From Aminivibrio pyruvatiphilus (lineage in GTDB: Bacteria; Synergistota; Synergistia; Synergistales; Aminobacteriaceae), in NCBI RefSeq assembly GCF_004366815.1, contig NZ_SORI01000004.1, positions 124,001 to 188,000 of the forward strand: a stretch of 64,000 bases of DNA. Direction: 5' to 3'. A program made the position numbers and the translations under genes. Positions 1,852 to 21,151 of this stretch are shown here, piece after piece. Each line of letters begins with the position of its first letter. Positions within the stretch are counted from its first letter, which is position 1. The notes under the pieces are model-generated. The model worked only from the letters and a program-made list of their open reading frames with translations, was not told the origin of the DNA and made no database searches.

Positions 1852-4227
1852 TTACTCCCCTAACACATCATCCTCAGCGATTCCTCTTGTTCCCACTTCA
1901 AAACTACAGTTTTCTTCAAGCATTTTCCCGTCTGCTTCAAAACGTAAAAGATGCTTTCCTTGCTTCATTTCCGAGAAATGAATTTGCCACTCTCGTCCGC
2001 TTTCGACAGGACTGCAGTCAGCGCGCTTTTCTCCGGAAAAGGCAGATAGAACAGAAATCTTCTTTGAAAACTTTACCCGCAAAGAAACTGAATCTTTTTC
2101 ACGATAAACAAACGTTGCCAAAAGAGTTGGCTTAGGGGCAAGGGGGACTTTCCTCCTGAGGACAACGACAGGTACGAGTATTTCTTCTGGGGTAGCGCCG
2201 CCATGAACCTCGCCAACACTTTCATGGTCATTGTCACTTTTCCCCGCAGCATTGCCGGACTGTGTAAAGTGCTCATGATTCTTGAACACAATGAAATTCT
2301 TTCCGTCCCGCTCAATGTGGGACATTTCTGGAAGGATTTCTTTCGAGAGCGGAGCCTCTGAGGATTCGCAGTAGCGTCCATATCCTTTAACAGCCATATC
2401 TGCGTGTGGTGTGAAGCCGGGAAGCTTATGAAAAGCAAGTGCCGCTAACCGACTTGTTCCGTGATCTGCACTAATCAGCACATAATCATGTTCCCTAAGA
2501 CTATTAAGGGCAATATCTGCCACTTTTTCTATCTGATCCAGCTGATGGGCTACACAGGAAAAATAATTATTATCGTCGGGGACGCCAGAATGCGCCAGCT
2601 TATCTAAGGCATCCAGCTTCTTAAAAGGTGCGTCAATTTCTGTCCATTGCTGATTATAGGATGTTTCCGTCGGCGCACGGGCACAAACAGGTCTTGCTTC
2701 AACAGAAAAGTCATTGCCTTTATTTCTTAGGCATGAAAGTAATAACGACAACCATTCGACACCCATGGCATCAATCCAGAGAAAAAAGGAATCAAATTTC
2801 TCATATTTCTTCAGTACTGAGTAACGTTTCTCAAAACACTCCAAATCAATGGTCCTAACCATTTCGGATGCTTCCAGAGGCAGCACATTCATTAGTTTGT
2901 GTTTCCTGTACCAATGAAGATACGTCGATAACTCAGACGACAGACATTTATCGGAGGCGGTCATATAGTCCCAGAATAATGGGTAGCGTTCACGAAGAGG
3001 TGATGCAACCGCCTCGAAGTCTATTCCCTTTTTCAAGTATTTGTTGATCGTTTGTATCGCATACGTTTTTTCAGCATGTGTTTTGTAGGAGAGCAAGGAT
3101 AGTCGTGTTTCCAGTGAGGATACCTTTTCTAATTGAGAAAAAAAGTATTCGTCCTTTTCTTCAATTTTTAAAGCAGAAACGGCTTTTGCCCTCTCTTCGA
3201 TCCATTCGCTCTTCTCGATGCAGTCGAAAATGGAATACAATATTGAATCAAGGATGCCCTCTGGACTTTTTGCACGTTTTACCGCATATCCGCAGTAGTT
3301 TTCGGACGGATTGAACCTATACCAAAGCCAAATCAGCCAGCGTTTATAGGGTGACAGAATTTCCCATCGTGAAAGAAGTGAGATCGGCTCAAAAACAAGC
3401 ACATTCAAGCTTTTTTTTATGATTTCGGCCAAAGATTTTCCATAATGAAGATCTTGCGACAAGGAAGTCCATTCTTCGGCCGTTCCCCATTCACGTCTCA
3501 AAGTGCCGCCATCATCCAGGGAGGCAGTGATATAGTCAAAAACATCAGAAATGATCTTTATATTAATTAAAGATGATGATATTTGCTCCGTATTCCTCCA
3601 GAGATTTGTAACGAGCCTGCAGCTTTTTCTCTGGCCGTTTATCATGCCTGACCATTTATAAAACCATGTCTGAACACCCTGCATGATATCGGTTCCACAA
3701 AGAGCCTCTCCAAATTCCTGGGAATAAACATTCAAGGAAAAAGGCTCGAGGGAATGATCAGAATGAACTCGGCTTGAGGGAAGGCTCAGCTCCCAAATGC
3801 AATCCCTCTGGCGTTCATCATCGTAAGGAATTACTCTATCCCATAAATCCCGGCAACATGGCAAAGGGATGATAACTCTCGTCCTGGATGAGGCAGCCTG
3901 CTGGCTATACCAGAGGGACGGGATATTCGCTTTTTGTGGTTGGACCTCACGTGCAATGGTCAGACGTAAATATTCTCCGAGAGAAAGAAGCAAAATATGT
4001 TTTTCCCGATGCTCTTCTATCTTTTTGAAAATTTTACTGAAATTTGGGAGCACATCCGGCGCAGAGCAGAAATCGGCCAACTCCAGCGTCACGTCGCAAG
4101 CATTTTCAAGAGCGGTCTCCAACTCTTTGTATTGTGACCAATCATCGACAAAAATAAGCCGTACCGGAAATCGGGATTCTACCTTTTTTTCATCCGCGAG
4201 CCGCTGAAGAATCTCTTGCAGCGTCAC
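1852..4227 (-). CDS. pglZ: PglZ-family BREX protein (alkaline phosphatase-like domain)
   Basis: 791 aa. PglZ is the shared hallmark of all BREX types and has an alkaline-phosphatase-superfamily domain. Here that domain begins near residue 478 with FFLWIDAMG (metal-ligand Asp at 486), continues with LISADHGTSR (Asp588-His589), and ends with the conserved GEVHGGATPEEILVPVVVL segment. The ~470 N-terminal residues are poorly conserved, as usual. The start is GTG at 4227 with a GGAGGG ribosome site 7 nt upstream; an ATG one base away is in another frame. It follows brxC by 20 bp and precedes the zinc-ribbon gene by 3 bp. Its biochemical role in BREX (phosphodiesterase or phosphatase acting in DNA marking or signalling) is not settled. 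Confidence 0.93.
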   Translation of the reverse strand: MTLQEILQRLADEKKVESRFPVRLIFVDDWSQYKELETALENACDVTLELADFCSAPDVLPNFSKIFKKIEEHREKHILLLSLGEYLRLTIAREVQPQKANIPSLWYSQQAASSRTRVIIPLPCCRDLWDRVIPYDDERQRDCIWELSLPSSRVHSDHSLEPFSLNVYSQEFGEALCGTDIMQGVQTWFYKWSGMINGQRKSCRLVTNLWRNTEQISSSLINIKIISDVFDYITASLDDGGTLRREWGTAEEWTSLSQDLHYGKSLAEIIKKSLNVLVFEPISLLSRWEILSPYKRWLIWLWYRFNPSENYCGYAVKRAKSPEGILDSILYSIFDCIEKSEWIEERAKAVSALKIEEKDEYFFSQLEKVSSLETRLSLLSYKTHAEKTYAIQTINKYLKKGIDFEAVASPLRERYPLFWDYMTASDKCLSSELSTYLHWYRKHKLMNVLPLEASEMVRTIDLECFEKRYSVLKKYEKFDSFFLWIDAMGVEWLSLLLSCLRNKGNDFSVEARPVCARAPTETSYNQQWTEIDAPFKKLDALDKLAHSGVPDDNNYFSCVAHQLDQIEKVADIALNSLREHDYVLISADHGTSRLAALAFHKLPGFTPHADMAVKGYGRYCESSEAPLSKEILPEMSHIERDGKNFIVFKNHEHFTQSGNAAGKSDNDHESVGEVHGGATPEEILVPVVVLRRKVPLAPKPTLLATFVYREKDSVSLRVKFSKKISVLSAFSGEKRADCSPVESGREWQIHFSEMKQGKHLLRFEADGKMLEENCSFEVGTRGIAEDDVLGE

Positions 4228-4247: not shown

Positions 4248-7200
4248 CTATTCTACAAAGTAATAGCCGAGTTCTGGATGTTCATCCAAAAGAGCCGATA
4301 ATTTATTTTTAAGCGTGTTCTCGCTCATTGAAGCAATCTTTTCCTGGACATCCTGCAAATACTGCATTTTCAGCTCCTTTTTTCTAAATTCACTCAAAAT
4401 ATTCGTGATCTCGGGAGCTTTTAGAGCCCATCCGTATGCATCGACTCCCAATTGATTTCGAATATCTGCAAGAAGACGATCCCGGTTTATTGAGAAAAGG
4501 TCTTTAAATTCTGAACCTACCTTGGCAAAAAAACGATTTTGAACATACTCCGGATTCTGCAGATAGGAGATGGCCGTGTTCTTGAAAAATGAAAGCGTTT
4601 TTTTCAGCACTCCCCCGTCGACAGGTTGTATTTCCTGAATCGATTTCAAAATCCTGAAATGCTCAAGATCATTTTCAGGAACAACCCACTGAATCGGCGT
4701 GGCATATTTTTTGCACCACTCCGAAATCGATTCAGTTCCGGAAATCTCTTTCCAGATTGACAGTAATTCCTCTTTATTGCGTGATATTTCTATCTTGCCC
4801 AACTGTCTGTCGATCGTATCGGAAAAATGAGCTTCGGGGCTATCGTAGGGAACAGGCTTCAAGCTGGAAATAATCTCCTCCAGCTCTTTCTCCTGACATG
4901 AGATTCCCCTCTTCCTTAAGTATTCCTCCAGCATTAATTTGGAAGAAGTAACAAATTGCCATGCAGCTTTCGAATGAGTTTTCAAGACCTGAAGAATACC
5001 AGGTCTTTGATCTGATGGCGGAAGGAAAATGCCCTTGCTGATTTTGGACAATAAACGCAAAGCTTCTGTCCAATCTTTCTCGAATGTCTCGATCACGATA
5101 CCAGGGACTATCATTGAACGGAAATAGTTCGATAGCTGCTCACCAATCAGGGAAATACTTCTGCAAGAAGTACCCATCGCCGAATTCACTACGAAAACCA
5201 GTTCATATTCCCAACATAGTTCATCGAGTTTTGTTTTTACATCTTCCTCAGACCAGGTATACACGGCACTTTGAAGCACCTGTTTGATGCGTGAGATAAG
5301 ATCGCCCGAAGAAACGTCCATCTGCTCCATCAAAACGCGCAGCGGAGGTGAAGCTTCGGCTACAAAAAACCTGAAAGCCTCAGAAAGTTTCTTTTTGTCA
5401 GCGAAAGCCTCAGTCATATTCTTGCGCAGAGGTCCCATTCCATTAAACAAAGCGACGGTATTTTCCATTATTTCGGTAGAACTTTCAGCCCCGTTTATGA
5501 ACGCTCCTATGTTTTCGACTATCTCGCAGGCCTTTTTCTTTGCTTCGACACTACCGAAGCTCTCCTCTCGGAGGTATTTCATCACCCAGAAGGGAAGTCC
5601 TGTTGTCACGAGTTTTTCGCGCATGTACTTTCGAGCCTGCTCCTCGCTGACCACATCAGCGTCCGTAAGGGCAAAAATACACTGAATATACTCTTTAAAA
5701 TTCTGCCATGCCTTCGAACCACATGAAAGCGTATTGCCGATCATCTGCCCTTTGCAAATCTTCAAAATCATCGAAGCCATGGTCTGTTCGGTCAAAATAT
5801 GGGTATTATTTGTCTCATCAATCCAGTAAAACTGTCCATTCACATAGAACCTCAACACCGCCCCAAGAATGCCTGCACAGGCCAAAGAGTTAAAATAACC
5901 GAAAGGCTCTTTCTGGAGGTCACTCCACATCTGGTCTAGATGAACCCGCGTACCTTTGGAAAGCGTATCGTTAATATAACGGGACAGCTGGGAAACAGTT
6001 CGAGCTACGACATTGCTCCCTTCGTATCTCACAAGCTCATCTATAGATGCTGCTTCATAGACCTTAGCCGTTTGTAAGGGTTGGAGAATATTGTTTAATT
6101 GTGAACTGGTAGCTTTGCCGGAAATTCCGCTCAAGGCCGCACTTTCAGTAGCTCCCTTAAAAGCGGTTGAGGTACTAACGATACGCTCAGGTGCGGCCGA
6201 AAAAATGCGGAATATGACACCATCTTTCAGCTGTCGTGAAAGATCATCTTTTCCCCATGCAGAGAAGACCCTATCTTTATAAAAAGCGGTAATTTTATTG
6301 CTTACAGCAGACTGTACCCACGCGAGCAGCATTTGCTCCGCTTCATTTTCATATTTGTCCGCGCTCCCCTTTTTCCCCTCTTCGGCAGCCAGCTCTTTAT
6401 GCGTTATTTTTTCATGCCACCGGTTCAGAAAATCATCGGTCAGCGGCTCTTTTAAAACGCATGTAACAAGATGATTGGTTTCATCTTCTGCAGCCATGCT
6501 TTTTAGCTTGTCGTGAAGAGTTTGATATTCGCTGGATTCTTTCAGAACAATCACAAGAACTCCGACAGCATATGGTGATTTTTTTAACTCATCCAGCAAA
6601 TCCGCATGACGACGATTGATAGAGTTCGTCTCCGAAGAGCAGGCGCAGACGGTAACTCTTCTGCTTGTTGCGTCATCGTCAGCCCAAATACGTCCTTCTA
6701 GGGCATCTGCAATTTCACCCTTCTTTTTGAAAAGTTCATACCGTGTATATTTCCTTTGAATCTGCTCCAATCGGATGGAGAAAACATCGGCATTTCCACT
6801 GTATGGTAGTTCCAGGCGCACGTCTCCGCTGGAGCTTTTGTCGAGACGAAGCAACCCGTTCTCCTGAAAGAGTTCGAGATATTTGTCCAAATCTTCTTTC
6901 GTAAGCTGACCGCTAAAACAGAGATACAGGCATTTTTGGGTAGGTGAAACCCTGCCGTTGTTCAACCTGCTGTAAAGATGCGTTGTCCTGGTGGTGGACA
7001 TGACTGCTATCAAGAGCATAATCGCTTTAAAAACATGTTGGCCTGTCTCATTTCCCGCATAATCTCTCTTCTCTATATAGTGCTGATAACACTTTCGGGC
7101 ATCCGAACTGAGGTCTTTCACGTCACTATCCCGTGTAAAGAAATAGTCCCAGAGGAAATCGGGAGTCAACCATCTCCAATCATCCGGGCCATATTTATTG

Positions 7201-8444
7201 ATAAAGTGGATGAACCCCACGTTTTCGTCCGCCTCGCTGAGATCTTTCATGAATCGAAAAAGTGTTCTCTGTGAAGCCCCGAAATTCTGCGCCACTATAG
7301 CAAGCATTGAAAGCGTCATTGGATGCAACGGGCATAACTGGGAAAGCCGGTCTTGTTTCCTTTCCATCTCCAAATTATCGAATTCATGAACATCGTTTTT
7401 TAAGCTTTGCATCAGTTTTGCCTTGATTTCTTTCCACTGTTCCTCCATTCCGGGACGAATCCAGATGGAATTGCCTATAAGATCGTAAGCTGCACTTTCA
7501 CTGATATGAAACTCAAGTTCGTGATAACGGTGCATTATACGCTGATACGTTTGCTCTCCCATATTCTCTACCCAGCCCGGATCACGGTGCACTATCAGAC
7601 ACATATAAAACGGCTGTTGTTTGCAGTACTCGGATAAACGCTGCAAGACGTTGTCATCTCCGCAGTCTCGAAGAAAACCTGTAAACTCGTCCCAAATGAA
7701 AACAATTCCGGTATCCGTTAGTTTGTTCCCGGCGATTATGTCCTTTAGCCATTCCTGGAACTGATCCACGCTGTTGAAGAGCCCCCAGCCCTTCTCCTTG
7801 ATGATCATAGCCACTCTGTCGGTTGCTTTTAAATCGTTCCCCATGATCTCTGATTTAAGCTCTTCGAGAGAGCCGAATTCCTCAAAGAGACCGAATTCCT
7901 GGTCATGGAAAACATGCTCCCAGTTGATAGACCGGTCATTCAACTTGTCCTTCACTGAACGGACCAGGGAACTGCTCCCGTAATAAACCTTCTCCCCAAA
8001 CTTCTGGCGCAGTTTTTCGCAAATAGCGGCCTCCATCTCCATCATAAGATGAACGCCGTTTTTTATGCCCGTGCATCCACTCTTCCAGACAACAAGAAAC
8101 TCTCCTCTTTCTCGTATGGAGACAAACTTGTTACGGTAAGGCAAAAGAATTTCTTTTGAAAGAAAGGGCTTAATATCTTCTATAGGGTCTTCAAAGAGGT
8201 GTTTGAGCACTATAGCCGCATAGCTTTTTCCGGTACCGTAGGCACCGTGAATCCAGAACGATCGCCGGGCATCCTTCGTCTCTTCTTTAATCGACTGGCA
8301 AATCTTGTCCAAAGCGATCTTCATATCCTCATGGACAATATATTCCTGCCAAAGATTTGGATTGCGTTCCTCGGCATCCAGATCGACAACTGATTCATAG
8401 TAAGGACTCAGTTCAATGTACGAACTGTACTTCGGCATCTCCAT
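4248..8444 (-). CDS. brxC: BrxC-family large P-loop ATPase of BREX
   Basis: 1398 aa. BrxC proteins are very large AAA-type ATPases (DUF499/BREX BrxC family) that scaffold the BREX complex. A Walker A loop GAYGTGKS is at residues 67-74, preceded by FWIH, and a Walker B segment IVFIWDEFTGFL is near residue 250. The remaining ~1100 residues contain no motif I can name and are mostly helical in character. The ATG at 8444 has AGAGGTG just upstream. It starts 6 bp after brxP ends and stops 20 bp before pglZ, giving the brxP-brxC-pglZ-brxL order that defines BREX type 4. Homologues in other BREX types are about 1200 aa. Confidence 0.92.
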   Translation of the reverse strand: MEMPKYSSYIELSPYYESVVDLDAEERNPNLWQEYIVHEDMKIALDKICQSIKEETKDARRSFWIHGAYGTGKSYAAIVLKHLFEDPIEDIKPFLSKEILLPYRNKFVSIRERGEFLVVWKSGCTGIKNGVHLMMEMEAAICEKLRQKFGEKVYYGSSSLVRSVKDKLNDRSINWEHVFHDQEFGLFEEFGSLEELKSEIMGNDLKATDRVAMIIKEKGWGLFNSVDQFQEWLKDIIAGNKLTDTGIVFIWDEFTGFLRDCGDDNVLQRLSEYCKQQPFYMCLIVHRDPGWVENMGEQTYQRIMHRYHELEFHISESAAYDLIGNSIWIRPGMEEQWKEIKAKLMQSLKNDVHEFDNLEMERKQDRLSQLCPLHPMTLSMLAIVAQNFGASQRTLFRFMKDLSEADENVGFIHFINKYGPDDWRWLTPDFLWDYFFTRDSDVKDLSSDARKCYQHYIEKRDYAGNETGQHVFKAIMLLIAVMSTTRTTHLYSRLNNGRVSPTQKCLYLCFSGQLTKEDLDKYLELFQENGLLRLDKSSSGDVRLELPYSGNADVFSIRLEQIQRKYTRYELFKKKGEIADALEGRIWADDDATSRRVTVCACSSETNSINRRHADLLDELKKSPYAVGVLVIVLKESSEYQTLHDKLKSMAAEDETNHLVTCVLKEPLTDDFLNRWHEKITHKELAAEEGKKGSADKYENEAEQMLLAWVQSAVSNKITAFYKDRVFSAWGKDDLSRQLKDGVIFRIFSAAPERIVSTSTAFKGATESAALSGISGKATSSQLNNILQPLQTAKVYEAASIDELVRYEGSNVVARTVSQLSRYINDTLSKGTRVHLDQMWSDLQKEPFGYFNSLACAGILGAVLRFYVNGQFYWIDETNNTHILTEQTMASMILKICKGQMIGNTLSCGSKAWQNFKEYIQCIFALTDADVVSEEQARKYMREKLVTTGLPFWVMKYLREESFGSVEAKKKACEIVENIGAFINGAESSTEIMENTVALFNGMGPLRKNMTEAFADKKKLSEAFRFFVAEASPPLRVLMEQMDVSSGDLISRIKQVLQSAVYTWSEEDVKTKLDELCWEYELVFVVNSAMGTSCRSISLIGEQLSNYFRSMIVPGIVIETFEKDWTEALRLLSKISKGIFLPPSDQRPGILQVLKTHSKAAWQFVTSSKLMLEEYLRKRGISCQEKELEEIISSLKPVPYDSPEAHFSDTIDRQLGKIEISRNKEELLSIWKEISGTESISEWCKKYATPIQWVVPENDLEHFRILKSIQEIQPVDGGVLKKTLSFFKNTAISYLQNPEYVQNRFFAKVGSEFKDLFSINRDRLLADIRNQLGVDAYGWALKAPEITNILSEFRKKELKMQYLQDVQEKIASMSENTLKNKLSALLDEHPELGYYFVE

Positions 8445-8450
8445 ACACCT

Positions 8451-10796
8451 CTATTCGATAGCGAGATCTATGATATCCAGCGATGATACCTCCGTGGACA
8501 GCCTTACGTTGTCAAGGTCTGCCACAAATGAAACCCGGATAAACTTCTCGAAATGAAGAGCCAATTCCTGCAAGATTTCTTTGAAAGCAGCGGGGTTTAT
8601 AGCGAATATGGAAACGGGATCCATTCCTGCGCTTTCATCGCTTGACCTGGCCTGCTCGAGCTGGGCCAGGGAAAAAGCATGCCGACCGGTCTTTTCGGCC
8701 CAAAGATACAGGGCGTACAGAACAGCAAGAGCATCCGGCGTTTCCCACCCCTGCTTAATGAACTTGTAACTGTTTCCGATAGCAATGGGAATACCCTGCT
8801 TGAGAACGCTGCCTACCGGGCTGTGGCGCAGGGTTTCCAGCAGAGAGGTGATTGCGTTGTCCCGCGTCGAATGTGAATAGTCGTCCCCGAGCATAGATAC
8901 CAAGTCACCTTTTTCATAGGTCTCTCCTGCAGGGACCTTGAGCATGTACCACCGAATAATCGTTGAAGCATAGGCCAGATTCGACCAAATCACGGCCCAC
9001 GTCAGCGGGTTGTAAGCTCCTAAAGTTTTGAGTCTCTCGAAAAGAGGCGTAGGGTTTCCGGATTTCTCTCCCTTATTTGCTGGAGTAATCAATCCGCTTT
9101 CTTTTAGCCAGACTTTTAGTGCGTCGTATTGTCGATTCCCAAGGTGTCCCGTCGAAAAACAGTCGCTTCCAAGTTCGAAGTAGTGCTCCAGCCAGATTCT
9201 TCGAAACCCAAATGTCTGATATCGGTTCATTCCTTTCAAATTCATCCCGTTGCCCCCCAATGTCGTCGAAAGGGATTTCGCCACAAGACACCCTTTCCCT
9301 CCGGTGAATACAATGCAATTCCCGCAGTGTACGCACCGATCCTCCCGAACGAAGATACGGCCGCTATCTAAAATGGTGAATGCCCCTGTAGGGCACTGCA
9401 CGACGCAAGCCTTGCAGCCGATGCAGTATGCAACCTTGTTCGCAACACCTCTTAAATAGCTTAGAATGTAACGATCCATTTGCTTGTACGGAGCATATTT
9501 CACGGTAAACGCATCGGAATTATCTACCGTGAAAGAAAATTCCCTTCGCTGAATTAACTGAACACCTCTGTTACCAGAGACCTCAATTATTGGACCTAAA
9601 AGAGGAGCAACATCAAACCAATTTTGTTTTGGAGAGGTAGTGAATTGAAATATCAAATTGTCATTTATAATATTTTCTAATACCCTATTGCCCCCATTGG
9701 GTAAATTACGTCCACCCATACGAGTTCGCCAACCATTAGATTCAATATATAATTGCCTTCTATTGGCATTAACACCTTGATTCTCAGCATATCGCTCTAC
9801 TTTCCCCAATAGCGTTTTAACTTCATTGTGAAATAAGGAATTACTAAGGCTATCACGCCATTTTGAGGACAATGGGCAAACAGTACACCCTACTCGATTA
9901 AATCCCAAATAATAAAGATGATTTAATAAGATATTGTTTTTCAATAAATATACAAAGGCTTCGGCCGAATTCCACTTTAAAATTGGACTGCAATTCACTT
10001 GGCTAATATTCTTCGCCCCAACGCTGACATCACCGTATTGTGACCGCGCCGCACTTTCTTCCGCACGCACACCGTCAAAGACAACGGCCTTCACATTGTA
10101 GTCTCCTGTTATCTCACGAAGTTTCAGAAGCGTGGGCACCGACTTATGAACTGCACAACACCAACGCATGCGCCTTCCAGGAGGCCCGAACTCGTCCCAT
10201 GTCCTTTCGGGCGTCATATGTGATGCCGCCTCGTAAAACCTTAGATTGCTCCAATGTTTCTTTGCCCTCTCAATTGCATCTATGGTACCTTGTAGTTCCA
10301 TTCCGGTATTACTGAAAATAACCTGAAAACAGTCGGGAGGGAGAGCCTTGTCCACCAAATCCAGAACTAAAAGTGAATCCTTCCCCCCGCTGAAAGCCAC
10401 CACAAAGGAATATCCTTGACCGCTGAACTCTTCATATTGTCTGCGTATAAAAAAAACGGCTTTTTGTTCCAGGCCCTTAATGAGCCCCTCGTTTACACTC
10501 CATAGAAGGTCCAAATCTATCGCCTTCAAGCAAAGATCCTTTTTAAAAACTTCAATTCGCGGCTTGGTGTAGAACCCCCCGCCTTTTGCCTCAGCGACAC
10601 ATTCTCCATTCAGGATATATCGCCTGATTCCTTCCGCCCACAAAAGAGGGGCGGTTGTATCAGGATAGTTCCAGTATTCTTGCATACCGAAGAAATCAAG
10701 CTCTTCTTTGAAAACTGGCCGAATTTCTTTCTCAAGTTTACTCGTTACAGATAATTTAAAAATTCCATACTGACTGGTCCATTCATAGCCGTACAT
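8451..10796 (-). CDS. brxP: BrxP: PAPS-reductase-like PP-loop protein fused to a ferredoxin domain (BREX type 4)
   Basis: 781 aa from ATG 10796, which has AGGGG 7 nt upstream; an in-frame upstream start inside the HNH gene lacks a good site. A PP-loop SGGKDS lies at residues 136-141, as in PAPS reductases, DndC and SspD. Cysteines follow at WCC (212-214) and GCTVCP (303-308). A ferredoxin-type domain follows with CIGCKACVVQC (458-468) and CVHCGNC (488-494) plus a later Cys503, suggesting two 4Fe-4S clusters. BrxP defines BREX type 4. By analogy with DndC, ATP activation of a DNA-linked group and sulfur transfer is plausible, but no cysteine desulfurase is visible here. DNA coding residues ~259-418 (9541-10020) is visibly more AT-rich than the rest of the gene, hinting at an exchanged module. 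Confidence 0.9.
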   Translation of the reverse strand: MYGYEWTSQYGIFKLSVTSKLEKEIRPVFKEELDFFGMQEYWNYPDTTAPLLWAEGIRRYILNGECVAEAKGGGFYTKPRIEVFKKDLCLKAIDLDLLWSVNEGLIKGLEQKAVFFIRRQYEEFSGQGYSFVVAFSGGKDSLLVLDLVDKALPPDCFQVIFSNTGMELQGTIDAIERAKKHWSNLRFYEAASHMTPERTWDEFGPPGRRMRWCCAVHKSVPTLLKLREITGDYNVKAVVFDGVRAEESAARSQYGDVSVGAKNISQVNCSPILKWNSAEAFVYLLKNNILLNHLYYLGFNRVGCTVCPLSSKWRDSLSNSLFHNEVKTLLGKVERYAENQGVNANRRQLYIESNGWRTRMGGRNLPNGGNRVLENIINDNLIFQFTTSPKQNWFDVAPLLGPIIEVSGNRGVQLIQRREFSFTVDNSDAFTVKYAPYKQMDRYILSYLRGVANKVAYCIGCKACVVQCPTGAFTILDSGRIFVREDRCVHCGNCIVFTGGKGCLVAKSLSTTLGGNGMNLKGMNRYQTFGFRRIWLEHYFELGSDCFSTGHLGNRQYDALKVWLKESGLITPANKGEKSGNPTPLFERLKTLGAYNPLTWAVIWSNLAYASTIIRWYMLKVPAGETYEKGDLVSMLGDDYSHSTRDNAITSLLETLRHSPVGSVLKQGIPIAIGNSYKFIKQGWETPDALAVLYALYLWAEKTGRHAFSLAQLEQARSSDESAGMDPVSIFAINPAAFKEILQELALHFEKFIRVSFVADLDNVRLSTEVSSLDIIDLAIE

Positions 10797-10806
10797 AAAA
10801 CAACCC

Positions 10807-11490
10807 CTATCCAAGCGTTTTAAGAATCTGTTCGCACTGAGAGCGGGAACGCCACGGACGATACTGATGCAACACCTGATGGCAGTTCGGACAAACCGTT
10901 ATAAAATCTTTTCCCGAGAAACGCATTTCAGGTCTCATGTCTTGCGGTAGGACGAGAAGATGAGGATCAAGGAACCGAGCAGTTTCCCTGAGGTGAAAAG
11001 CTGTTTGTGGATTCAAACCACATATCGAACAGCTATTGCAAGTTTTGGAAAAGCGAAAACCATGACGATTCTCTAAGAAGCTATGTAAATTGAATAGAAT
11101 AACCCCCTCAGGAAACTCAACGGTCGAGGGGAAATAAGAAAAACCTATAGATTTAACGAAATCAGAATTTCTTTTAATAGATTGAGCAATTTCTGAGATT
11201 AATATTTTATTCTTGCCAATCTCATTATATACCGTATAGAATATTTCGCCTACATGAATTGGTTTCTTCTTTTTCTGCAACCCCCATTCAAAAGTAAGAA
11301 GTTGTCTCCGTACACCTGAAGGATTCCTAAAGGTCTCATCCCGCTCAGAAAGCGGAATGAGAGGAAGACTATTCAGTAGTTTGCTCAACTCGATAATCGC
11401 TTCATTCTCCACGGAAAAGTTCTTTGTATCCATGGAAAAAAGGACGTCCAATCCCAAAATGACTTCGTCTCGCGTCCAAGGAGGGTTCAT
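10807..11490 (-). CDS. HNH endonuclease-like protein at the head of the BREX type 4 operon
   Basis: 227 aa. The N-terminal half resembles the common leader of McrA-like HNH restriction proteins: PPWTRDEVILGLDVLF at the start and FRNPSGVRRQL near residue 55. The C-terminal half has a zinc-binding HNH scaffold, CNSCSICG then VCPNCHQVLH, two CxxC pairs about 55 residues apart. The usual HHxxP catalytic strand is not obvious; only an isolated His in AFHLRE precedes the second CxxC, so activity is uncertain. The stop lies 10 bp before the brxP start and its own start is 3 bp after the upstream gene, so it is translated in the same operon. Middle codons (11,060-11,330) are unusually AT-rich. It may cut foreign DNA by its modification state, but that is inference. 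Confidence 0.75.
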   Translation of the reverse strand: MNPPWTRDEVILGLDVLFSMDTKNFSVENEAIIELSKLLNSLPLIPLSERDETFRNPSGVRRQLLTFEWGLQKKKKPIHVGEIFYTVYNEIGKNKILISEIAQSIKRNSDFVKSIGFSYFPSTVEFPEGVILFNLHSFLENRHGFRFSKTCNSCSICGLNPQTAFHLRETARFLDPHLLVLPQDMRPEMRFSGKDFITVCPNCHQVLHQYRPWRSRSQCEQILKTLG

Positions 11491-11493
11491 TGT

Positions 11494-13677
11494 TTATACT
11501 CCTGCGTTCAGGAGGACTGTTCTCATGTCCTTGGACCAGGCAAATCGGAAATCGTCCAGTGCCTTGTGCATGCTGCCGACAAGTTCGTTTCCCTCCAACA
11601 CCCCGTTTTGCTTCAAGAATTGGCGCAAATCTTCAGCACTGACACGTTTGCGGGGCTCCCGTCGTTCTTGAAGCAAAGCTGAAACAACATCGGCAAAGGT
11701 CGCTATTTCGGATTGCAAAGGAACGAGTGCGGCGTGCAGAGTATCTGTTCTCTGTCCAGAAAGGGCGGGTATAGAACGATATCCGATATCCTGATGGAAT
11801 CGGAGAACCTCTTGGAGCAAAAGCGCAGTCCATTCAAGGCGAAATGGCAGTTCAGGAAGGCTCGAGTACCATTCCTTCCTAATGTCGCGAAGAATGATAA
11901 ACTTGTTGCCATCGAAAATCCTTGAAAGGCACCCGGAAATATGCTTTATCCACTGTTCATTTATTTGTAGGAACTCGTCAAGCAAGTAATGATTTCTATC
12001 ATACTGTAAAAAAGTGCCTTCTCTCCCGATACCCATTACAGTTTGCTTAAAATTCGGTACATTGAAGCCAAGGCGCTTTAAAAACTCGTCGCACTCTTCA
12101 CCGGAAACGATATTTTTCGCCATACGAGCGAAATGGATTGCAAGGCCTTTCATTGTCTTCGGATAACTCGGTTCTTTATACCAGATATGGGTCCCATTGG
12201 AAAAGACAAAAGAATGGCCACGATATTGCTCTTTTGAAAAAAAATGCTTTGCCAGCAAGTATACAGATACTATGTCATCAAAGCCGTTATCGTTCAAGGG
12301 AATCATTAACTCCACTCGAACTGCATTGTATAAGAGACGCGCTGAAACATATCCGTCGAAACGCTCGAAAAGCCGCTCAAGAATTCGGTGCAACCCGTCT
12401 GCAATCTTGTCCGCGTCTACAATTGCAGAACGATGGACATACTTCTCTCTTCCAATCTCTACGATTAGAATTTCAGAAGCGATTAATTCCGATGCGACCG
12501 CCCGTGTGCATTGCAGATTAGAACAAATTTCTTGCAGAGAAGCCCCCTGAACACCATAGCCCTTAATAAAATCCAAAATATGTTCCGAAAGGTGATATGA
12601 TGCAGTTGTATCGTTCAAGATATCATCCCGATTCCTTGAAAGAGAAACCTCCGAATTGGATGAACATGTACGCATCCCCAACGAAAACTTTGGGCGCACG
12701 TAGATTTGCACTTCCTGGATGGGAATGCCTGTATGAAGACAAATGCTCTGCGCGCTGCGGACAACATTACGGACATCGGGATCAGCGTTCACGAAGAAAC
12801 CATCAGCAAATTCCTTTGAAAAACGGAAAGCGTTTTTGTTTCGGGAAATTAAGGGGCACTCTCCTCGAACAATAGGAGTGTCAGCAAGTTTTCCGATACG
12901 TTCCGGGCTTTTTTGGATTGCTGCACTGCATACACAAAGCAGGACATCAGACCAAGATTCGACCGGGAAAGACCTGTTGCTTACCACAGAGCGGACAGGG
13001 GCAACCTCACTCAAAATCTCTTCGGAGGCGAGATCCATCACCACAAGACCAGCATTTTTCTGTACGAACGCATCTTTTGGGGCCAAGATAAACTGCACTT
13101 CTTTTGAAGAAGGTTCGTTTGGGAAACGCTTTTTAATGCTGTTTAAAATTTCTAGGCGCTCTTTCAAAGGGTAGATATTTTTTCTATTCATGTATTGCAA
13201 GATGGAAATATTCCTTATTTGTTCCAGAGTCGTAATTCCATCTATTTTAAAAGCATCGAGAAGGGGACGGTATTTATCTTCCTGCAGCAGAGTCTCTAGA
13301 GACTGAGACACCATTTTCTCCCTGCATTCCGCTGTTGAAAGAGAATCTGCTGAAAGAGTTCCCCTTTTAGCACTATCATACCTCGATTCAAGTTCGCTTC
13401 CTTCCTCCGAGCAAAACTTTTCATACAGCCGTAAAGCATCAATAATCGCAAACTGCTCTAAAGTGGGCATTGACCTGAATTCGGGGGATGAGATCACTTC
13501 TCTAACTTTATTTTTCATCAAAGAAGGCGACAGATGGATAAAATCAAATTCAATCTTCATAAAACGAGGAATTGAATAGAGATGCTTCATCACTTGGTTA
13601 GGATCGGACAGTTTTTTACTGAAAAGCCATTTTTTAAAGCGTGATTCATTAGTATTTGCTGAAACGCCAAGTGACAT
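11494..13677 (-). CDS. Unrecognised 727-aa protein, first gene of the BREX type 4 operon
   Basis: I do not recognise a family. From ATG 13677 (AGGTGG 5 nt upstream; a GTG 9 nt earlier is less well placed) it reads 727 aa, with no signal peptide, membrane segment or Walker motif. The middle (roughly residues 390-430) has a helix-turn-helix-like segment, GASLQEICSNLQCTR followed by ELIAS and a strand-turn ending KYVHRS, which reads like a winged-helix module. The N-terminal ~200 residues are strongly helical. It lies 3 bp upstream of the HNH gene, so the two are probably made together and may work as a pair. Candidate roles are DNA recognition, a specificity or regulatory subunit, or a nuclease partner; the sequence alone does not choose between them. 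Confidence 0.7.
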   Translation of the reverse strand: MSLGVSANTNESRFKKWLFSKKLSDPNQVMKHLYSIPRFMKIEFDFIHLSPSLMKNKVREVISSPEFRSMPTLEQFAIIDALRLYEKFCSEEGSELESRYDSAKRGTLSADSLSTAECREKMVSQSLETLLQEDKYRPLLDAFKIDGITTLEQIRNISILQYMNRKNIYPLKERLEILNSIKKRFPNEPSSKEVQFILAPKDAFVQKNAGLVVMDLASEEILSEVAPVRSVVSNRSFPVESWSDVLLCVCSAAIQKSPERIGKLADTPIVRGECPLISRNKNAFRFSKEFADGFFVNADPDVRNVVRSAQSICLHTGIPIQEVQIYVRPKFSLGMRTCSSNSEVSLSRNRDDILNDTTASYHLSEHILDFIKGYGVQGASLQEICSNLQCTRAVASELIASEILIVEIGREKYVHRSAIVDADKIADGLHRILERLFERFDGYVSARLLYNAVRVELMIPLNDNGFDDIVSVYLLAKHFFSKEQYRGHSFVFSNGTHIWYKEPSYPKTMKGLAIHFARMAKNIVSGEECDEFLKRLGFNVPNFKQTVMGIGREGTFLQYDRNHYLLDEFLQINEQWIKHISGCLSRIFDGNKFIILRDIRKEWYSSLPELPFRLEWTALLLQEVLRFHQDIGYRSIPALSGQRTDTLHAALVPLQSEIATFADVVSALLQERREPRKRVSAEDLRQFLKQNGVLEGNELVGSMHKALDDFRFAWSKDMRTVLLNAGV

Positions 13678-14004
13678 AAGATCCACCTCATTATTCAGAG
13701 AAATACAAATTAGATCAAAGACGTGAACATACCACCATCACATAAAAGATGTTTCAAATTAGTACACTCGGACCCTTTGAATAAGAAAAAGAAGAATCGA
13801 GAGCATCTCTTTTATAGTATTGAAAACTCGACCTGCATATTTTTAATAAACCTAAAAATCTCCATTTATCAGCCTGCATAGATAGATTCCATAAATATTT
13901 TCATCTTTCTATACTGCTCTAACCCTATTTGTTGAAGATAATTTACTGCTGTTTTTCAGTAGAAGCAACCTATCCTTATTTTTTACAGCTTTTCTCTGGG
14001 ATTA
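13678..14004. other. AT-rich gap between rpoC and the BREX operon
   Basis: About 330 bp with no convincing ORF on either strand and only a weak hairpin (TACTG...CAGTA near 13,950). No clear intrinsic terminator follows the rpoC stop, so some read-through from rpoC into the defence operon is possible. It contains the putative BREX promoter. Confidence 0.6.
13729..13757 (-). promoter_or_regulatory. Possible promoter for the BREX operon
   Basis: On the minus strand TTGAAA (13752-13757) is followed after 17 nt by TGGTAT (13729-13734), about 52 nt before the first ATG of the operon. The -35 fits well and the -10 only moderately. A TACTATAAAA element further upstream (around 13,812-13,821) is an alternative -10. 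Confidence 0.35.
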
Positions 14005-17000
14005 CTAGCTCTGTTTTATAAAAAACGAGCGGTTTCCGTTTTTTCGACCCATACTCAAATATCCTATGATTTCCAGATCAGCAGCATACACTTCTGATTT
14101 TTGAGAGAAGAAAAATGGTGTTTCACCTTGCCCCTTCCTTGATCGATCTCCTTGAGTCCGCACATTTCCATGGAGCATAAGCCAGCCAAGCAACATGACT
14201 ACAAAAAACAGGATTATGAGAGTGACACGTTTCAGAATTTTCACATTCGCTTTCTTTCTTGTTTCATCGTCCCGAGCAGTTTCGTCTCCGTTTCCTTCAG
14301 AGAAAACATGGTCTGGAGGCGTGGAAACCAACTGGACCCTTTCATCAGAATCTTCTCCACCAGGTCTGAATGCCGGGCGATCATGCTGGGCATGCTCTTG
14401 AAAGCTGTTGCTGTCATCCTTATTTTCATCCATTTTCTCTTGCAATCCAGTCTCTGGTGCCGGCCTTTTCGATTCTGCGGCATAATAAAAATGAGCTTCT
14501 TCATCGGCAATATTATGCTTTTCTCCTAAAGTCACTTCTATTTCCTTATGTTGACTGCCATAAGGCATGGGAACTATCTCATCGTATTTCTCCTCATCAG
14601 AAAAATGTTGATAAGGGTTAACATCGCTTCCAGAAACTGGATAGCCTGCTTTTTTGTTTTCAAAACTTGCTTTGGGCATATCTTGATAATATTCCTCGGT
14701 AAAAGAAATTGGGGAGTTCTCTGGATTTTTTTTCTCTTCAGGTCTTCTTAGTATTGGAGTCATCTGAATCATCTTGATGTTTTGGAAAAACTCCACTCCC
14801 GCTCCGGCGGCTTTTTCGGCCAGCGCCCTGGCCTGGCCGACCCTGATGGCCCGGAATCTTTCAACTCCCGTTCCGGCGGGGATGAGGTGACCGATGATCA
14901 CGTTCTCCTTCAGGCCCTCGAGGGGATCGATTTCCCCCTTGACCGCCGCCCCGGCCAGGACCTGGGCCGTCTGCTGGAAGGACGCCGCGCTGAGGAAGCT
15001 GTCCGTGGCGAGGGCCGCCTTGGTGATGCCGTGAACAAAGGGCTTCACCTTCGGCCCCTCCCGGAGTTTCCGGACGAAGGTCACCCGCTGGATGATCTTC
15101 TTTTCGTCCTTCCGGGGAGCGCCAATGGGACGGACCACCACTTCCAGGAGATCCGGACAGTCGGCGAGGGCGTCGATCACGGCCTGGTTCACTTCGGTGC
15201 CGGCTTCAGCCAGGACATGTCCTTTCCTGTCGGTCACTGATTCGAGCAATACCTTGCCGTAGATCTTGGCCGACAGGAGATCCCTGAGAAAACGGTCTCT
15301 CGAGAAAATGGAGCCGTCTATCTCTATGGCGGAAACGGAACCGTCGAGAATTCCTTTAATGATGGAAGCATCCACCAGCTGCGGAATGTCCGCAATGGCA
15401 TCCCCGTCCCGGTCGATGGCCTGGGTCAGGGGCTTGCCCCACTTGTCCTTGAGGCTCTCCTCGAGCTTGTCGGGTATGTTGACCCGCTCCACCGTATGCC
15501 ACAGGACGATGGACGGGACATTGAGCTCCCTGCACCGGGCGGCGTCCTTCGCCGTGAAGACCCTGTCGGCCTTCGCGATGAGTTCGTCGTCCACGATGAT
15601 GTTTTCAGCGAGATAAACGCCGTCGGCGAGCTTTTCAAGAATCTCGCCGTCACGGACGAGCAGGGGCGTCGGGTCGTCGGCGGTGATGATGCCGAGCTGC
15701 CCGAGGGTCAGGTGGGTCCCGGCGGAAATTTCCTTGCCGTCGGAGGAGGTGAAGGGAGTGATGAGGTCCATGCCCTCCATCTGCTTCCTGAAAGCGGCCT
15801 CGCCCACGATGAGGGTGACGGGAACGCCTTCCTCGTCGTCCACCACCACGGAGGAGATCATCATGCCGGGCCTGAGTATGGTCCGGATGGCTTCCTCGTC
15901 CAGGGGGACACCGATATACCTGGTCACCGCTTCGTTGAGCTTCTGGGAAGCCACGTCCCGGAGGATCCGGCCCGAGAAGATCCGGACCGCTTCGGTGATG
16001 TTGTCCTCGTTTTCCTTTACTATCTGGGCCATCTCGGCGTCGATGTCGTCGGTCCACACGAGGTCGCCGGCCACGAAGGAGGTGTCTCCCTCCTCGGTGA
16101 TCTTGACCCGGTTCACCGGCGCCACTTTCCGCAGGATGACCTCGATGTGCTTGTTGTTGATGGACACGCCCTGGGATCGGTAGACTTCCTGGATCTCGTC
16201 CACGAGGGCCCGCTGAACGGCCTCGATCCCCTCCACCTCGAGCATCTGCTGGGGGTCCACGTTGCCCTCGGTGATCTTGTCGCTCTTCCTGACCTCATCC
16301 CCTTCCTTGATCAGAAGGTTCTGGCTGATGGGGATGTTGTAGGTAGTCTTTTCCTCGCTCTCGCCGTTTCCGGAGGTGATGATGACCTTCCGCTTGCCTT
16401 CCATGACCCGGACTTCGGAAACCCTGCCGTCCACGCCGGCGAGGTAGGCCACTTTCTTTGGACGGCGGACTTCAAAGAGCTGCTCGATCCGGGGAAGACC
16501 CTGGGTGATGTCCTCACCGGTAAGACGGACACCGCCCGTATGGAAGGTCCGCATGGTGAGCTGGGTTCCCGGCTCGCCGATGGACTGGGCGGCAACGACG
16601 CCCACCGCCTCGCCCATGGGGACTTCCTTCCTGGTGGCCAGGTCCATGCCGTAGCACACCTGGCACACGCCGTGCCGGAGGCCGCAGGTCAGGGGGCTCC
16701 GGACCCACACGGATTCGATTCCCGCCTTTTCTATCTTTTCCGCCGTCTCGACGGAGATGCATTCACCCTTCGACGCTATCACGGTGCCGGTCGCGGGGTC
16801 GGCGATGTCGTCCAGGGCGGTGCGGCCGTAGATCCTCTCCGAAAGGGGGATCATGACCTTCCCGTCCTGCTTCAGGGGCTCGATGCAGATGCCGTGGTCC
16901 GTGCCGCAGTCATGGTCCGTGATGATGAGATCCTGGGCCACGTCCACGAGCCGCCTGGTGAGGTATCCCGACTTGGCCGTCCGGAGGGCGGTATCGGCAA

Positions 17001-19776
17001 TTACCCTCCTGGTAGTAGCAGCTACAATAAAGTACTCAAACATGTTCATCCCCTCGCGGAAGTTCGCCGTGATGGGATAGTCGATGATCCGTCCCGACGG
17101 GTCGGACATGAGGCCCCGGATGCCGGCCATCTGGCCCATCTGGCTCCGGCTTCCCCTGGCGCCGCTGTCGCTCATCATGCGGATGGGGTTGACCCGATCC
17201 ATGTGGTCCACGATGCTGTCGGCTATGGACCTTGATTTCTCCGACCAGAGGCTTTCCTTCTGGAAAAGATATTCGTCCTGGGTGAGGATGCTCATGTTGT
17301 ACTCGGACTTGAGCTCCTCATCCTCTTCCATGGCCTGCCTCGTGAGTTCCATCTTCTCCGGCGGGATGATGATGGACTGCACGCCGAAGCTGATGCCGCT
17401 CCGGGTGGCCCACCGGTAGCCCAGCATCTTGATGTCGTCGAGCATCTTCACCATGGCCACCCGGTTCACCATGTCGTAGGCCCGGTCGAGGATGGCGCCG
17501 AGGTCCTTCTTTCCGAGCTGTCGGTTGACGAACCGCAGTCCCTCGGGAAGGATGCTGTTGAAGATGACCCGGCCGGGGGAGGTGATGATCCAGTTCCCTT
17601 CCCCTCCCCACTCGGGGCTGTTTTTCAGCTTGACCCGGCCGTCCACCTTCACCGCGCCGTGGTTGAACGCCACGAGCACGTCGTCAAGGTCGGTGAAATG
17701 GGGCAATTCTTCCCCTGCCGTTTCGTCCTTCATGTCCGTCAGGTAGTAGATGCCCAGGACGATGTCCTGGGTGGGCGTCATGACGGGGCGGCCGCTCGCC
17801 GGGGAGAGCAGGTTGTTCGCCGAGAGCATGAGCAGCCTCGCCTCCGCCTGGGCCTCGATGGACAGGGGCACATGAACGGCCATCTGGTCTCCGTCGAAGT
17901 CGGCGTTGAAGGCGGTGCATACCATGGGGTGCAGGCGGATGGCCTTGCCCTCCATGAGCACGGGTTCGAAGGCCTGGATGCCGAGCCTGTGGAGCGTGGG
18001 GGCCCGGTTCAGCATGACGGGGTGGTCCTTGATGATCTCTTCGAGGATGCCCCAGATCTCTTCCCGGCCACGCTCGATGATACGCTTGGCGCTCTTCACG
18101 TTGGGGGCGAGGCCCCGCTCCACGAGCTGGCGGATGACGAAGGGCTTGAAAAGCTCGAGGGCCATCTGCTTCGGCAGGCCGCACTGGTAGATCTTGAGCT
18201 GGGGGCCGATGACGATGACCGAGCGGCCGGAATAGTCGACCCGCTTTCCGAGGGGGTTCTGCCGGAAGCGCCCCTTCTTGCCCCGGAGCAGGTCGGTGAG
18301 GCTCTTGAGGGGCCGGTTTCCGGCGCCCAGCACGGCCTTGCCCATGCGGCCGTTGTCGATGAGGGCGTCAACGGCTTCCTGGAGCATGCGCTTTTCGTTG
18401 CGGATGATGATCTCCGGAGCCTTGAGATCCTGAAAAATCATAAGCCGATTGTTCCGGTTGATGACCCTCCGGTACAGGTCGTTGAAGTCCGACGTGGCGA
18501 ACCGGCCGCCATCGAGCTGCACCATGGGGCGCAGGTCGGGCGGGATGACCGGCAGCACTTCGAGGATCATGGACTTGGCCGCGGATTTGCTCTTCCGGAA
18601 GTCCTCCGCCACCTGGAGGCGCTTGATGAGCTTCCGTTTCTTCTGGCCGGTGCTTTCGGAGACTTCTTCCCGGAGGGCCGCGCCGAGCTGGTCGAGATCG
18701 ATCTGCTCCAGCAGGGCCTGGACGCCCTCGGCTCCGATGCCCGCCCGGAATTTCTTGTCGTAGGCGGCGCAGAGGTCATACTCCCTCTCGAGGATGATGT
18801 CGGCGGGAGCGTAGGGGGAGATGCCCTCCTCGATGACAACGTAGCAGGGGTCCTCCACGGTGATGACTTCCTGCTGGGCGGTGAACCTCCCGGGGAATTT
18901 CTGGCTGTAGAGCCGGAACTCGCTCTCGGAGAGGACGTCGCCCTTTGCAAAGGGAAGGTGGACGGCGGCGATGACCACGAAGGCCTCCTGGTTTCCGGCC
19001 ATGGCCCGTTCGATTTCAAAGGTGTCGCCGTGGCGCTTCCGGTGACGCTCAACTTCAGACGCTGATACCACGGCACCTACAGCGCAGGAAGGGTCATCGG
19101 GAATGGTGACGAAGGTGAAGGCGGTCTCCACCTTGAAGCTCTCGTCGCCGTACTCCGTCTTGAACCGGGAGACCTGCCCCGCGGAGAGAAGGTCGTCCTC
19201 GTTCACGGGGACGTCGTCCACGGTGACGATGCGGAAGGCTTCCTCGGCCTTGAACTTGGGATCGTAGTGGCTGTGGATGCGGACCTCGCTCTCGGAGAGC
19301 ACGTCGTTCTTCCGGGCAAGGTCGATCCGCCGTCCCTCAATGACCACCTTGTAGGCGGCCTCCCGCCGGCGGGTGGGGGCGAAGTAGACCACATTCACCA
19401 GGTCCTTGATGGTGCAGCCCAGCAGCAGGCTGAGCCTGCTCGGGATGCCCTGGAGGTACCAGACGTGCACCACCGGCGCGGCAAGCTCGATATGGCCCAT
19501 GCGCTCCCGGCGGACCCGGTTGTCGGTGACTTCCACGCCGCAGCGGTCGCAGATGATCCCCTTGAACTTGGGGCTGCTGCGCTTGTATTTTCCGCAGGCG
19601 CACTCATAGCTCTTGATGGGGCCGAAGATGCGCTCGCAGAAGAGTCCGTCCTTTTCAGGCCGGAGGGTCCGGTAATTGATGGTCTCGGGCTTCTTCACCT
19701 CTCCGCTGGAGAGTTCCCGTATTCTTTCCGGGCTTGCGAGCTTGACCCGCACCCCGAGTATTTCCCTTCGGGCCAA
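14005..19776 (-). CDS. rpoC: RNA polymerase beta' subunit with an abnormal membrane-type C-terminal extension, not next to rpoB
   Basis: 1923 aa. The core is intact: N-terminal zinc ligands C59, C61, C76, C79; the catalytic NADFDGD at 624-630; the second zinc site ([20 protein letters not shown]) and the trigger-loop region [19 protein letters not shown]. Residues ~157-346 carry about five degenerate ~42-aa repeats (D-x-LSESE...KF.AE). The normal beta' end is reached near residue 1663; the remaining ~260 residues are an acidic, low-complexity linker, one hydrophobic helix ([18 protein letters not shown], ~1851-1868) and 55 more residues. These codons are AT-rich, unlike the core. The start is TTG at 19776 with AGGGG upstream and an in-frame TGA 9 nt before. 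rpoB, normally adjacent upstream, is absent, as are rpsL and fusA downstream. It may be an extra island-borne copy or the sole, relocated one. Confidence 0.93.
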
Positions 19777-20434
19777 CGGTCTTCATCCCCTATTTTTGTA
19801 GGTTCAACATACTCAACAAGAGCTCCTCCAAATTCCACATCTTCGCTTTAAAAATAAGGACTCAAATTTTCGGAGAGTATTCAAGCTATTGCATTGGATC
19901 GCTCGAGCAATATCACGAGCGGGATTCGATGGTTACCGTACAACGAGAATGTTCTGTCGGTCATTAACCCTCCGAAAAATAATGTATGCATTTTGTATTT
20001 GTGGCACTCATTGGATTGTGTAAGAAAAGAATCCTCGCTATTGCAGGATTCTTATGAATTGAATGGACTCTCGGCTCTCACATAAGTAAGTATACCTTAA
20101 TTCTCGAAATTTTAGGAGTGTTGGTCTTCTGAATAATTCTAAATTCACCCTAAACAGAGTCTTCATTCCTTTAAAGACAGGTCAGGACAAATCAATCGAC
20201 AAACTTCCCAGCGGTTCTTTTTGCGTCCACGGAGTCTTTTTCAGCATCTGAATTAATCTGAACACTATACGAAAAATCGGTCTTGCTTCTTGAACGTTGG
20301 TGTTCCGTAATGTAGAATAAAACCGTTGCGGGGGGCGGATGTGGTGTTACAAAGTGGTGTTACAAAACGGCACAACGGGTTTTTGAAGAATGCAGTGTTT
20401 GCAACGACTTATAAAAAGAGAGGAAAATGGTAAT
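19777..20434. other. AT-rich gene-poor stretch upstream of rpoC
   Basis: About 660 bp between the rpoC start and the tRNA-Ser fragment. Short open frames exist (for example 19894-20085 on the plus strand) but lack a ribosome site and family likeness. No rpoB remnant is visible. Near 20,340-20,366 the 13-mer gtggtgttacaaa occurs twice in tandem, the kind of direct repeat that could be an integrase or excisionase arm site. Composition differs sharply from the GC-rich rpoC core on one side and from the chromosome on the other. Confidence 0.55.
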
Positions 20435-20477: not shown

Positions 20478-20522
20478 CAAACGGAGGAAAAGTGACTAAA
20501 CACTTTTCCTCCGTTTGTTTTT
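20478..20522 (+). terminator. Strong intrinsic terminator after the tRNA-Ser fragment
   Basis: A perfect 17-bp stem (20478-20494 with 20501-20517), 6-nt loop actaaa, then five T. Most likely the original terminator of the tRNA-Ser gene. Confidence 0.9.
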
Positions 20523-20647: not shown

Positions 20648-21151
20648 ATGCCAAAAAAGGACCATGCAAATCGCGCAATTGTTTTCTCTGCGTTTTTTCT
20701 TCTCTGCCTTTCGGCTGTGTCCGCATGGGCTTCCGTTTCCCAGGGGCTCGCCGAGCGGCTTGACCTTTTCCGTGACCGGAACTGGGTGTACAACAACGTA
20801 GGCAAGCCGGATTCCGTTGACTGGAATACGACCTTCAAGGCAGAGCTTGAAATGTACAGAATCTCAGGTTCATCGTATTTTGACTGGTATTTTGTGTCAT
20901 ATGGCCTTGACGGAACAATCGATGTTTTGGGGCAAATTTACAAGAAGGGGTACATGTCGGGATATGAGGTCTGTGACGAGCTTGAATCCCGGGGAGGTTT
21001 CCCCGCCGGCACGACAGGGCTTGGGAAGATATTCAGGATACAGCACACACGAACGGGAAAATCCATCCGGGTTGCCGTACAGGACAATAAAAAGCTCGGA
21101 CAAACGGTGGTGTACATGCTGACGCAGGATGCCTGGGAGAGGGTCAACTGA
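20648..21151 (+). CDS. Secreted protein of unknown function
   Basis: 167 aa. The start ATG has GGGAGGT 7 nt upstream. A signal peptide is clear: positively charged N-terminus, hydrophobic FSAFFLLCLSAVSAWA, and a likely cleavage after AWA. The mature part is ~140 aa, rich in aromatic and charged residues (FDWYFVSYG, RIQHTRTG), with a single Cys; I recognise no family. It stands alone, first gene on the chromosomal side of the att scar, and no operon partner is near. A 9-bp inverted repeat at 21163-21193 follows the stop but lacks a T-run. Confidence 0.75.
   Translation: MPKKDHANRAIVFSAFFLLCLSAVSAWASVSQGLAERLDLFRDRNWVYNNVGKPDSVDWNTTFKAELEMYRISGSSYFDWYFVSYGLDGTIDVLGQIYKKGYMSGYEVCDELESRGGFPAGTTGLGKIFRIQHTRTGKSIRVAVQDNKKLGQTVVYMLTQDAWERVN

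Follow-up and report, generated by a model that had tools for sequence, protein, structure and literature searches.

The genome of Aminivibrio pyruvatiphilus carries a second, accessory rpoC, here referred to as rpoC*, which stands at the head of a type 4 BREX island, is altered at several functional sites of the β' subunit and runs on in frame into a predicted one-helix membrane segment. The rpoC gene is essential, occurs normally once per genome and ranks with the most conserved genes. In the following, we describe this copy, the sites at which it has changed and its surroundings, and weigh how it may have come about.

A second rpoC at the head of a BREX island

The window is a stretch of 64,000 nucleotides (G000:C4:124001-188000) within a 207-kb contig, and positions refer to it unless another locus is named (Table 1). 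The frame of rpoC* (19776..14005, minus strand) comprises 1923 open codons from a TTG. Its protein is 96.9% identical to the rpoC product of a congener (G001), 93.9% to that of the housekeeping rpoC of its own genome and 91.7% to that of a further genome (G002). It carries the Pfam domains Rpb1_1 to Rpb1_5, which are the domains of a full-length β', scores 1578 bits against TIGR02386 (cut-off 963.5) and retains the trigger-loop sequence. Residues 134-310 (window 18847-19377) form an insertion of ~175 residues with repeated (S/L)E.E...Y...F-like units; this insertion is missing from the β' of the closest PDB relatives, is present in the rpoC of congeners and is probably lineage-specific.

The housekeeping rpoC resides on contig C9, where it directly follows rpoB and encodes a protein of 1663 aa with a normal C-terminus. 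Since this gene is intact behind rpoB, rpoC*, which lies outside the rpoB-rpoC operon, is the second and accessory of the two rpoC of this genome and not the cell's working β' gene. Its nucleotide homology to the closest rpoC loci is limited to 14799-19791. The 5' limit lies 15 nt before the start codon, within the last codons of rpoB, and the 3' limit lies in the last codons of rpoC. The normal rpoC stop is absent; tentatively, the alignment at the 3' end points to a small deletion that would have removed it. Outside rpoC*, the window has no match to these loci except a short one at its tRNA-Leu gene, and a remnant of rpoB upstream of rpoC* was looked for and found no support. Likewise, a search for short repeats of 9-11 nt that might connect the two junctions, or the edges of the island, found none.

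To the right, synteny with G001 resumes at window position 20027, and to the left near C4:118275, so that the variable stretch between the shared flanks spans ~26 kb. Here, rpoC* is followed, on the same strand, by the genes for a 730-aa protein, a 227-aa protein, BrxP, BrxC, the type 4 PglZ and BrxL. The 227-aa protein has no match in Pfam, PADLOC or NCBIfam. The type 4 BREX set has been described as BrxP, BrxC, PglZ, BrxL, DUF4007 and a cysteine desulfurase (PMC12839542); a protein that by eye resembles cysteine desulfurases is encoded just left of the window and would fit this proposed sixth component. We considered whether rpoC* is a regular part of BREX-4 and rejected this, because the BREX-4 locus of another genome (G124) contains a homolog of the 730-aa protein and no rpoC, because a full-length BrxP is encoded by eight genomes of the order, of which the other seven carry a single rpoC and this one alone carries two, and because a survey covering 457 type-4 BREX taxa makes no mention of rpoC in its text (PMC12839542).

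Two further observations concern the surroundings. Between the same flanks, G001 has ~34 kb of other DNA (L042 from about 14275), including genes for large helicase-like proteins. Between rpoC* and the gene at 20648, the non-coding DNA contains, on the plus strand at 20478-20517, a 17-pair hairpin followed by T's, which is terminator-like.

Table 1. Features of the rpoC* region and of the polymerase loci compared with it; positions are those of the window unless a locus is given
Feature	Position	Strand	Basis
BrxL	145..1614	-	TIGR02688, 398 bits (cut-off 329)
Type 4 BREX PglZ	1852..4227	-	NF033445 BREX_PglZ_4, 298 bits (cut-off 140)
BrxC	4248..8444	-	PADLOC BrxC, E 4.5e-77
BrxP (PAPS-reductase type)	8451..10814	-	PADLOC BrxP, E 8e-225
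227-aa protein, Cys/His-rich C-terminal part	10807..11490	-	HNH-like by eye
730-aa protein, BREX-4 locus companion	11494..13686	-	homolog with 41% identity at the G124 BREX-4 locus
In-frame C-terminal extension of rpoC*, about 260-264 codons	14005..14796	-	AT-rich, coding periodicity, open beyond chance
Predicted single transmembrane helix, core residues 1852-1869	14170..14223	-	highest hydropathy window and model
β' body of rpoC*, residues 1-1660, TTG start	14797..19776	-	protein identity and nucleotide homology to rpoC
Remodelled N-terminal hinge of the bridge helix, residues 913-928, LEYFISTHGARKGLAD replaced by another 16-residue sequence	16993..17040	-	densest cluster of changes
Intact catalytic NADFDGD motif, residues 624-630	17887..17907	-	sequence
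L508P in switch 2 (E. coli L342P)	18253..18255	-	alignment
Changed clamp coiled coil, residues 446-450, KKLQE to MIFQD	18427..18441	-	E. coli K280M, R281I, L282F
15 nt kept from the end of rpoB, carrying the rpoC ribosome-binding site	19777..19791	-	5' limit of homology
Non-coding DNA, specific to the island, that separates rpoC* from the conserved chromosome (from 20027)	19792..20026		synteny; no rpoB remnant
Housekeeping rpoB (contig C9)	L032:8615-12217
Housekeeping rpoC (contig C9)	L032:12217-17208
Fused mini β-β' loci	L092:2592-11270; L094:6768-15434; L091:4615-13766; L090:10290-18637; partial in L093 and L095

An orphan tail with a predicted membrane helix

The normal β' end, counted from MARREI, lies at residue 1663-1664 both in the other copy of this genome and in two congeners. 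An earlier note on this DNA had described a frame that continues for ~260 codons past this end, with an acidic linker, a strong hydrophobic helix and a switch from GC-rich to AT-rich composition, and all of this holds. The frame runs on for about 260-264 codons, and a frameshift or stop at ~14,780, for which that note had allowed, does not occur in this sequence. GC content drops from 62.5% in the rpoC body (GC3 86%) to 41.5% in the tail, where GC1/2/3 of 0.54/0.34/0.37 reveal a coding periodicity resembling that of the neighbouring BREX genes. Moreover, of 20,000 Markov-simulated sequences of equal composition, none kept a given frame open over 264 codons. Because it is open beyond chance and has its own coding periodicity, the tail is real coding DNA.

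The encoded tail starts with an acidic stretch of ~190 residues (40 D/E and 20 K/R in the first 185), which precedes the helix. The top 19-residue hydropathy window of the whole of rpoC* starts at residue 1851, with a Kyte-Doolittle value of 2.56 against a maximum of 1.53 in the body. In a single-sequence AlphaFold model, the tail consists of disorder and one helix (mean pLDDT 52), with tail residues 174-211 as the sole confident helix, and it is thus predicted to be a one-helix membrane segment. The earlier note had likened the ~54 residues after the helix to PilP/GspC-like pilus-assembly proteins, a likeness that found no support, as neither Pfam, even at E 10, nor PDB returned a match. No convincing homolog of the tail emerged from its own genome, from 183 genomes of the order, from the contigs of 84,980 species, from viral contigs, from phages and plasmids, or from Pfam and PDB. 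Within the genomes searched, the tail is confined to this one; judged by these comparisons, it is an orphan. Comparison with the rpoC of relatives, as the note had proposed, bore out that the extension is specific to rpoC*, but the gene, which it had taken for that of the β' subunit, proved to be a second copy.

Changes at functional sites

The densest cluster of changes lies at the N-terminal hinge of the bridge helix, where STHGARKGL has become VAATTRRVI. This block holds 19 copy-specific changes in 45 nt, compared with ~0.7 expected from 80 evenly spread changes and with 4 to 9 in the densest 45 nt on normal branches. Mapped to E. coli β' by one alignment of three sequences, the changes of the hinge correspond to L770F, S775V, T776A, H777A, G778T, A779T, K781R, G782V and L783I. 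Beyond the clamp coiled coil, that is, the sigma-docking helices, and switch 2 (Table 1), the same alignment places further changes at L265F and G671S, with several more in the N-terminal region. How conserved the bridge helix is was judged from six rpoC, the PDB relatives and general knowledge. In contigs of 84,980 species and in viral contigs, exact DNA-pattern matches to the VAATTRRVI bridge helix included no rpoC. Salinamide resistance in E. coli maps to eleven β' positions, among them 775, 779, 782 and 783, in a segment termed a functionally essential, dynamic hinge (PMC4029172). All four of these positions are changed in rpoC*, an overlap in position.

As a donor of the bridge-helix block we considered a fused, CRISPR-linked polymerase of relatives, which is ruled out, as its helix differs. 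This polymerase is a side finding of our searches. It is a single-chain, fused mini β-β' protein of about 1360-1560 aa (complete copies), which combines Rpb2_6/Rpb2_7 with Rpb1_2/Rpb1_5 domains, possesses NADFDGD and a trigger-loop-like motif and occurs in six genomes that belong to a different genus (g16) within the family. It is preceded by a CARF-HD protein (Cas_APE2256); then comes a hypothetical protein of ~290 aa, after which most loci encode an AAA protein of the RtcR/sigma-54-activator type, and some loci have type III CRISPR genes (Cas10, Cmr1, Cas6) beside it. The fused protein may be an RNA polymerase linked to type III CRISPR, of which a literature search yielded no description.

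Ancestry and selection

The rpoC* gene is a mosaic of congeneric ancestry. Its residues 991-1650 differ from G001 by a dS of 0.07 and a dN of 0.003; its residues 1-660 are about equidistant from its own and the G001 rpoC (dS 0.19-0.25). It has exact stretches of 434 and 370 nt in common with the G001 rpoC, and its longest exact match to the own rpoC measures 159 nt. Residues 1-990 show a large excess of amino-acid changes, with a dN ~4 times (residues 1-340) and ~12 times (residues 341-660) that between the two normal copies. When changes are polarised against the own rpoC and that of G002, 39 nonsynonymous and 41 synonymous changes fall on the rpoC* branch and 6 and 56, respectively, on that of G001 (Fisher p 5e-7); the excess stays at p 2e-4 after removal of the three densest clusters. 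Within residues 991-1650, the rpoC* branch has 7 synonymous changes and 1 nonsynonymous change, which is normal constraint; outside this region, rpoC* does not display the purifying selection of the other rpoC of the genus. At positions on which five other rpoC agree, rpoC* has 28 residues of its own (start-codon residue included), and the same count gives 4 for the own rpoC and none for G001. The absence of stops as proof of function was rejected as uninformative, given that 27-40 neutral changes leave no stop with a probability of 0.23-0.39.

A separate observation concerns the own housekeeping rpoC (L032). Because its residues from about 661 to 760 have a dS of 0.60 to G001, compared with 0.21-0.28 elsewhere, its sequence suggests interspecies recombination of rpoC in this genus.

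Origin and possible role

We lean towards the view that rpoC* is a captured copy that has been freed from housekeeping constraint and is mostly drifting, and we favour drift over selection for a new role. A complete rpoC unit, from the ribosome-binding site to the last codons and without rpoB, sits at the edge of the island, with or into which it would have been captured, presumably by recombination among congeners. It continues beyond the site of its former stop into a coding sequence of the island that lies in the same frame and encodes a predicted one-helix membrane segment. The suggestion of the earlier note that the fusion was made by an insertion fits such a course, as AT-rich island DNA surrounds a GC-rich rpoC unit whose limits are exactly those of the gene and which continues in frame into island coding sequence. 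If translated, the product would be a membrane-anchored β', which may still be able to bind α2β because most of the protein is unchanged, and whose nucleotide addition and sigma binding would be impaired or altered. Against this view, the changes form dense blocks at functional sites instead of being scattered, and residues 991-1650 are normally constrained, which would not be expected from simple decay of the whole gene; the frame, intact over 5.8 kb, argues weakly in the same direction.

It is possible, if rather unlikely, that rpoC* has instead been selected as a subunit of the defence island: a membrane-anchored, hinge-remodelled β' that serves as a decoy for phage or natural-product inhibitors, is insensitive to inhibitors or acts in a dominant-negative (abortive) manner. 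Its place at the head of the BREX-4 island and on the strand of the defence genes would suit such a role, as would the blocks that strike the hinge, the sigma-docking coiled coil and switch 2 while sparing NADFDGD and the trigger loop, the positional overlap with four salinamide-resistance sites (PMC4029172) and a tail of coding DNA fused in frame. However, such a copy is known from one genome, with no counterpart in the seven other BrxP genomes of the order and no mention in the survey of type-4 BREX taxa (PMC12839542). The fuller claim that the island encodes an accessory, membrane-anchored β' with a remodelled hinge and sigma-docking surface, which acts in anti-phage defence as a decoy, by inhibitor insensitivity or abortively, strikes us as doubtful. 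If it held, rpoC* would encode, to our knowledge, the first RNA polymerase subunit to act in a BREX island.

The remaining explanations concern the fusion and the sequence itself. It is improbable that two products are made, the membrane segment being translated from its own start (M at 14770-14772 or 14761-14763) and the fusion being incidental: ATG codons do stand at the start of the AT-rich coding sequence, with GGAGTGGAG ~18 nt upstream, but this spacing is long for a ribosome-binding site, and without an intervening stop the fusion would arise with every translation of rpoC*. An assembly artefact, in which the rpoC of a congener was misjoined to the BREX contig or a chimera was built from the two copies, could be read from the mosaic and the long exact stretches common with G001. 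We nevertheless consider it very improbable, given that both joins lie at gene boundaries inside the 207-kb contig, that exact matches to the own rpoC are so short, that the copy-specific blocks occur in no other genome searched, which leaves no known source to mix in, and that estimated contamination is 0.48%. Finally, the earlier note had proposed that the extension tethers RNA polymerase to the membrane. The frame and the helix are real, yet for the working polymerase the proposal fails and is scarcely credible: a normal rpoC with a normal C-terminus is present after rpoB, and rpoC* is without residues that are common to all other rpoC compared. At most, an accessory, radically altered β' would be membrane-tethered, if it is expressed.

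With bridge-helix residues replaced that all other rpoC compared share, and with most of the rest intact, this second copy constitutes a rare natural experiment on how much change the bridge-helix hinge and the coiled coil that docks sigma can tolerate. A functional rpoC* would connect RNA polymerase with the membrane and with a BREX defence island. Were it a passenger, the gene would still illustrate that a single-copy marker gene can occur twice per genome via a defence island.

Comparison with known systems

Among known systems, housekeeping rpoC (TIGR02386), and most closely that of G001, is 94-97% identical to rpoC* over 1650 residues and alike in NADFDGD and the trigger loop. Unlike it, rpoC* is a second copy with no adjacent rpoB, a TTG start and a 264-residue membrane tail, and its bridge helix, clamp coiled coil and switch 2 are altered. 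As for type 4 BREX, rpoC* adjoins a complete-looking set as its first gene and on the same strand, but rpoC is no known part of this system and, judging by copy number, is absent from the loci of the other BrxP genomes.

Duplicated polymerase subunit genes offer another comparison. In actinomycetes, rpoB duplicates are linked to rifampicin resistance. Francisella has two rpoA (PMC3294249). Like these, rpoC* is an extra copy of a normally single subunit gene that diverges at functional sites; unlike these, it lies in a defence island and is fused to a membrane segment. Plasmid-borne rpoC were considered as mobile precedents and set aside on the basis of one annotated example, Shewanella pSbal03, which carries a block of rpoBC and ribosomal-protein genes and not a lone rpoC. 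Lastly, the phage multisubunit-type polymerases and YonO (PMC7598289, PMC5467207) resemble rpoC* in being encoded by β'-type genes outside an rpoBC operon; however, they are highly divergent, whereas rpoC* is a near-identical, host-type β' without a β partner.
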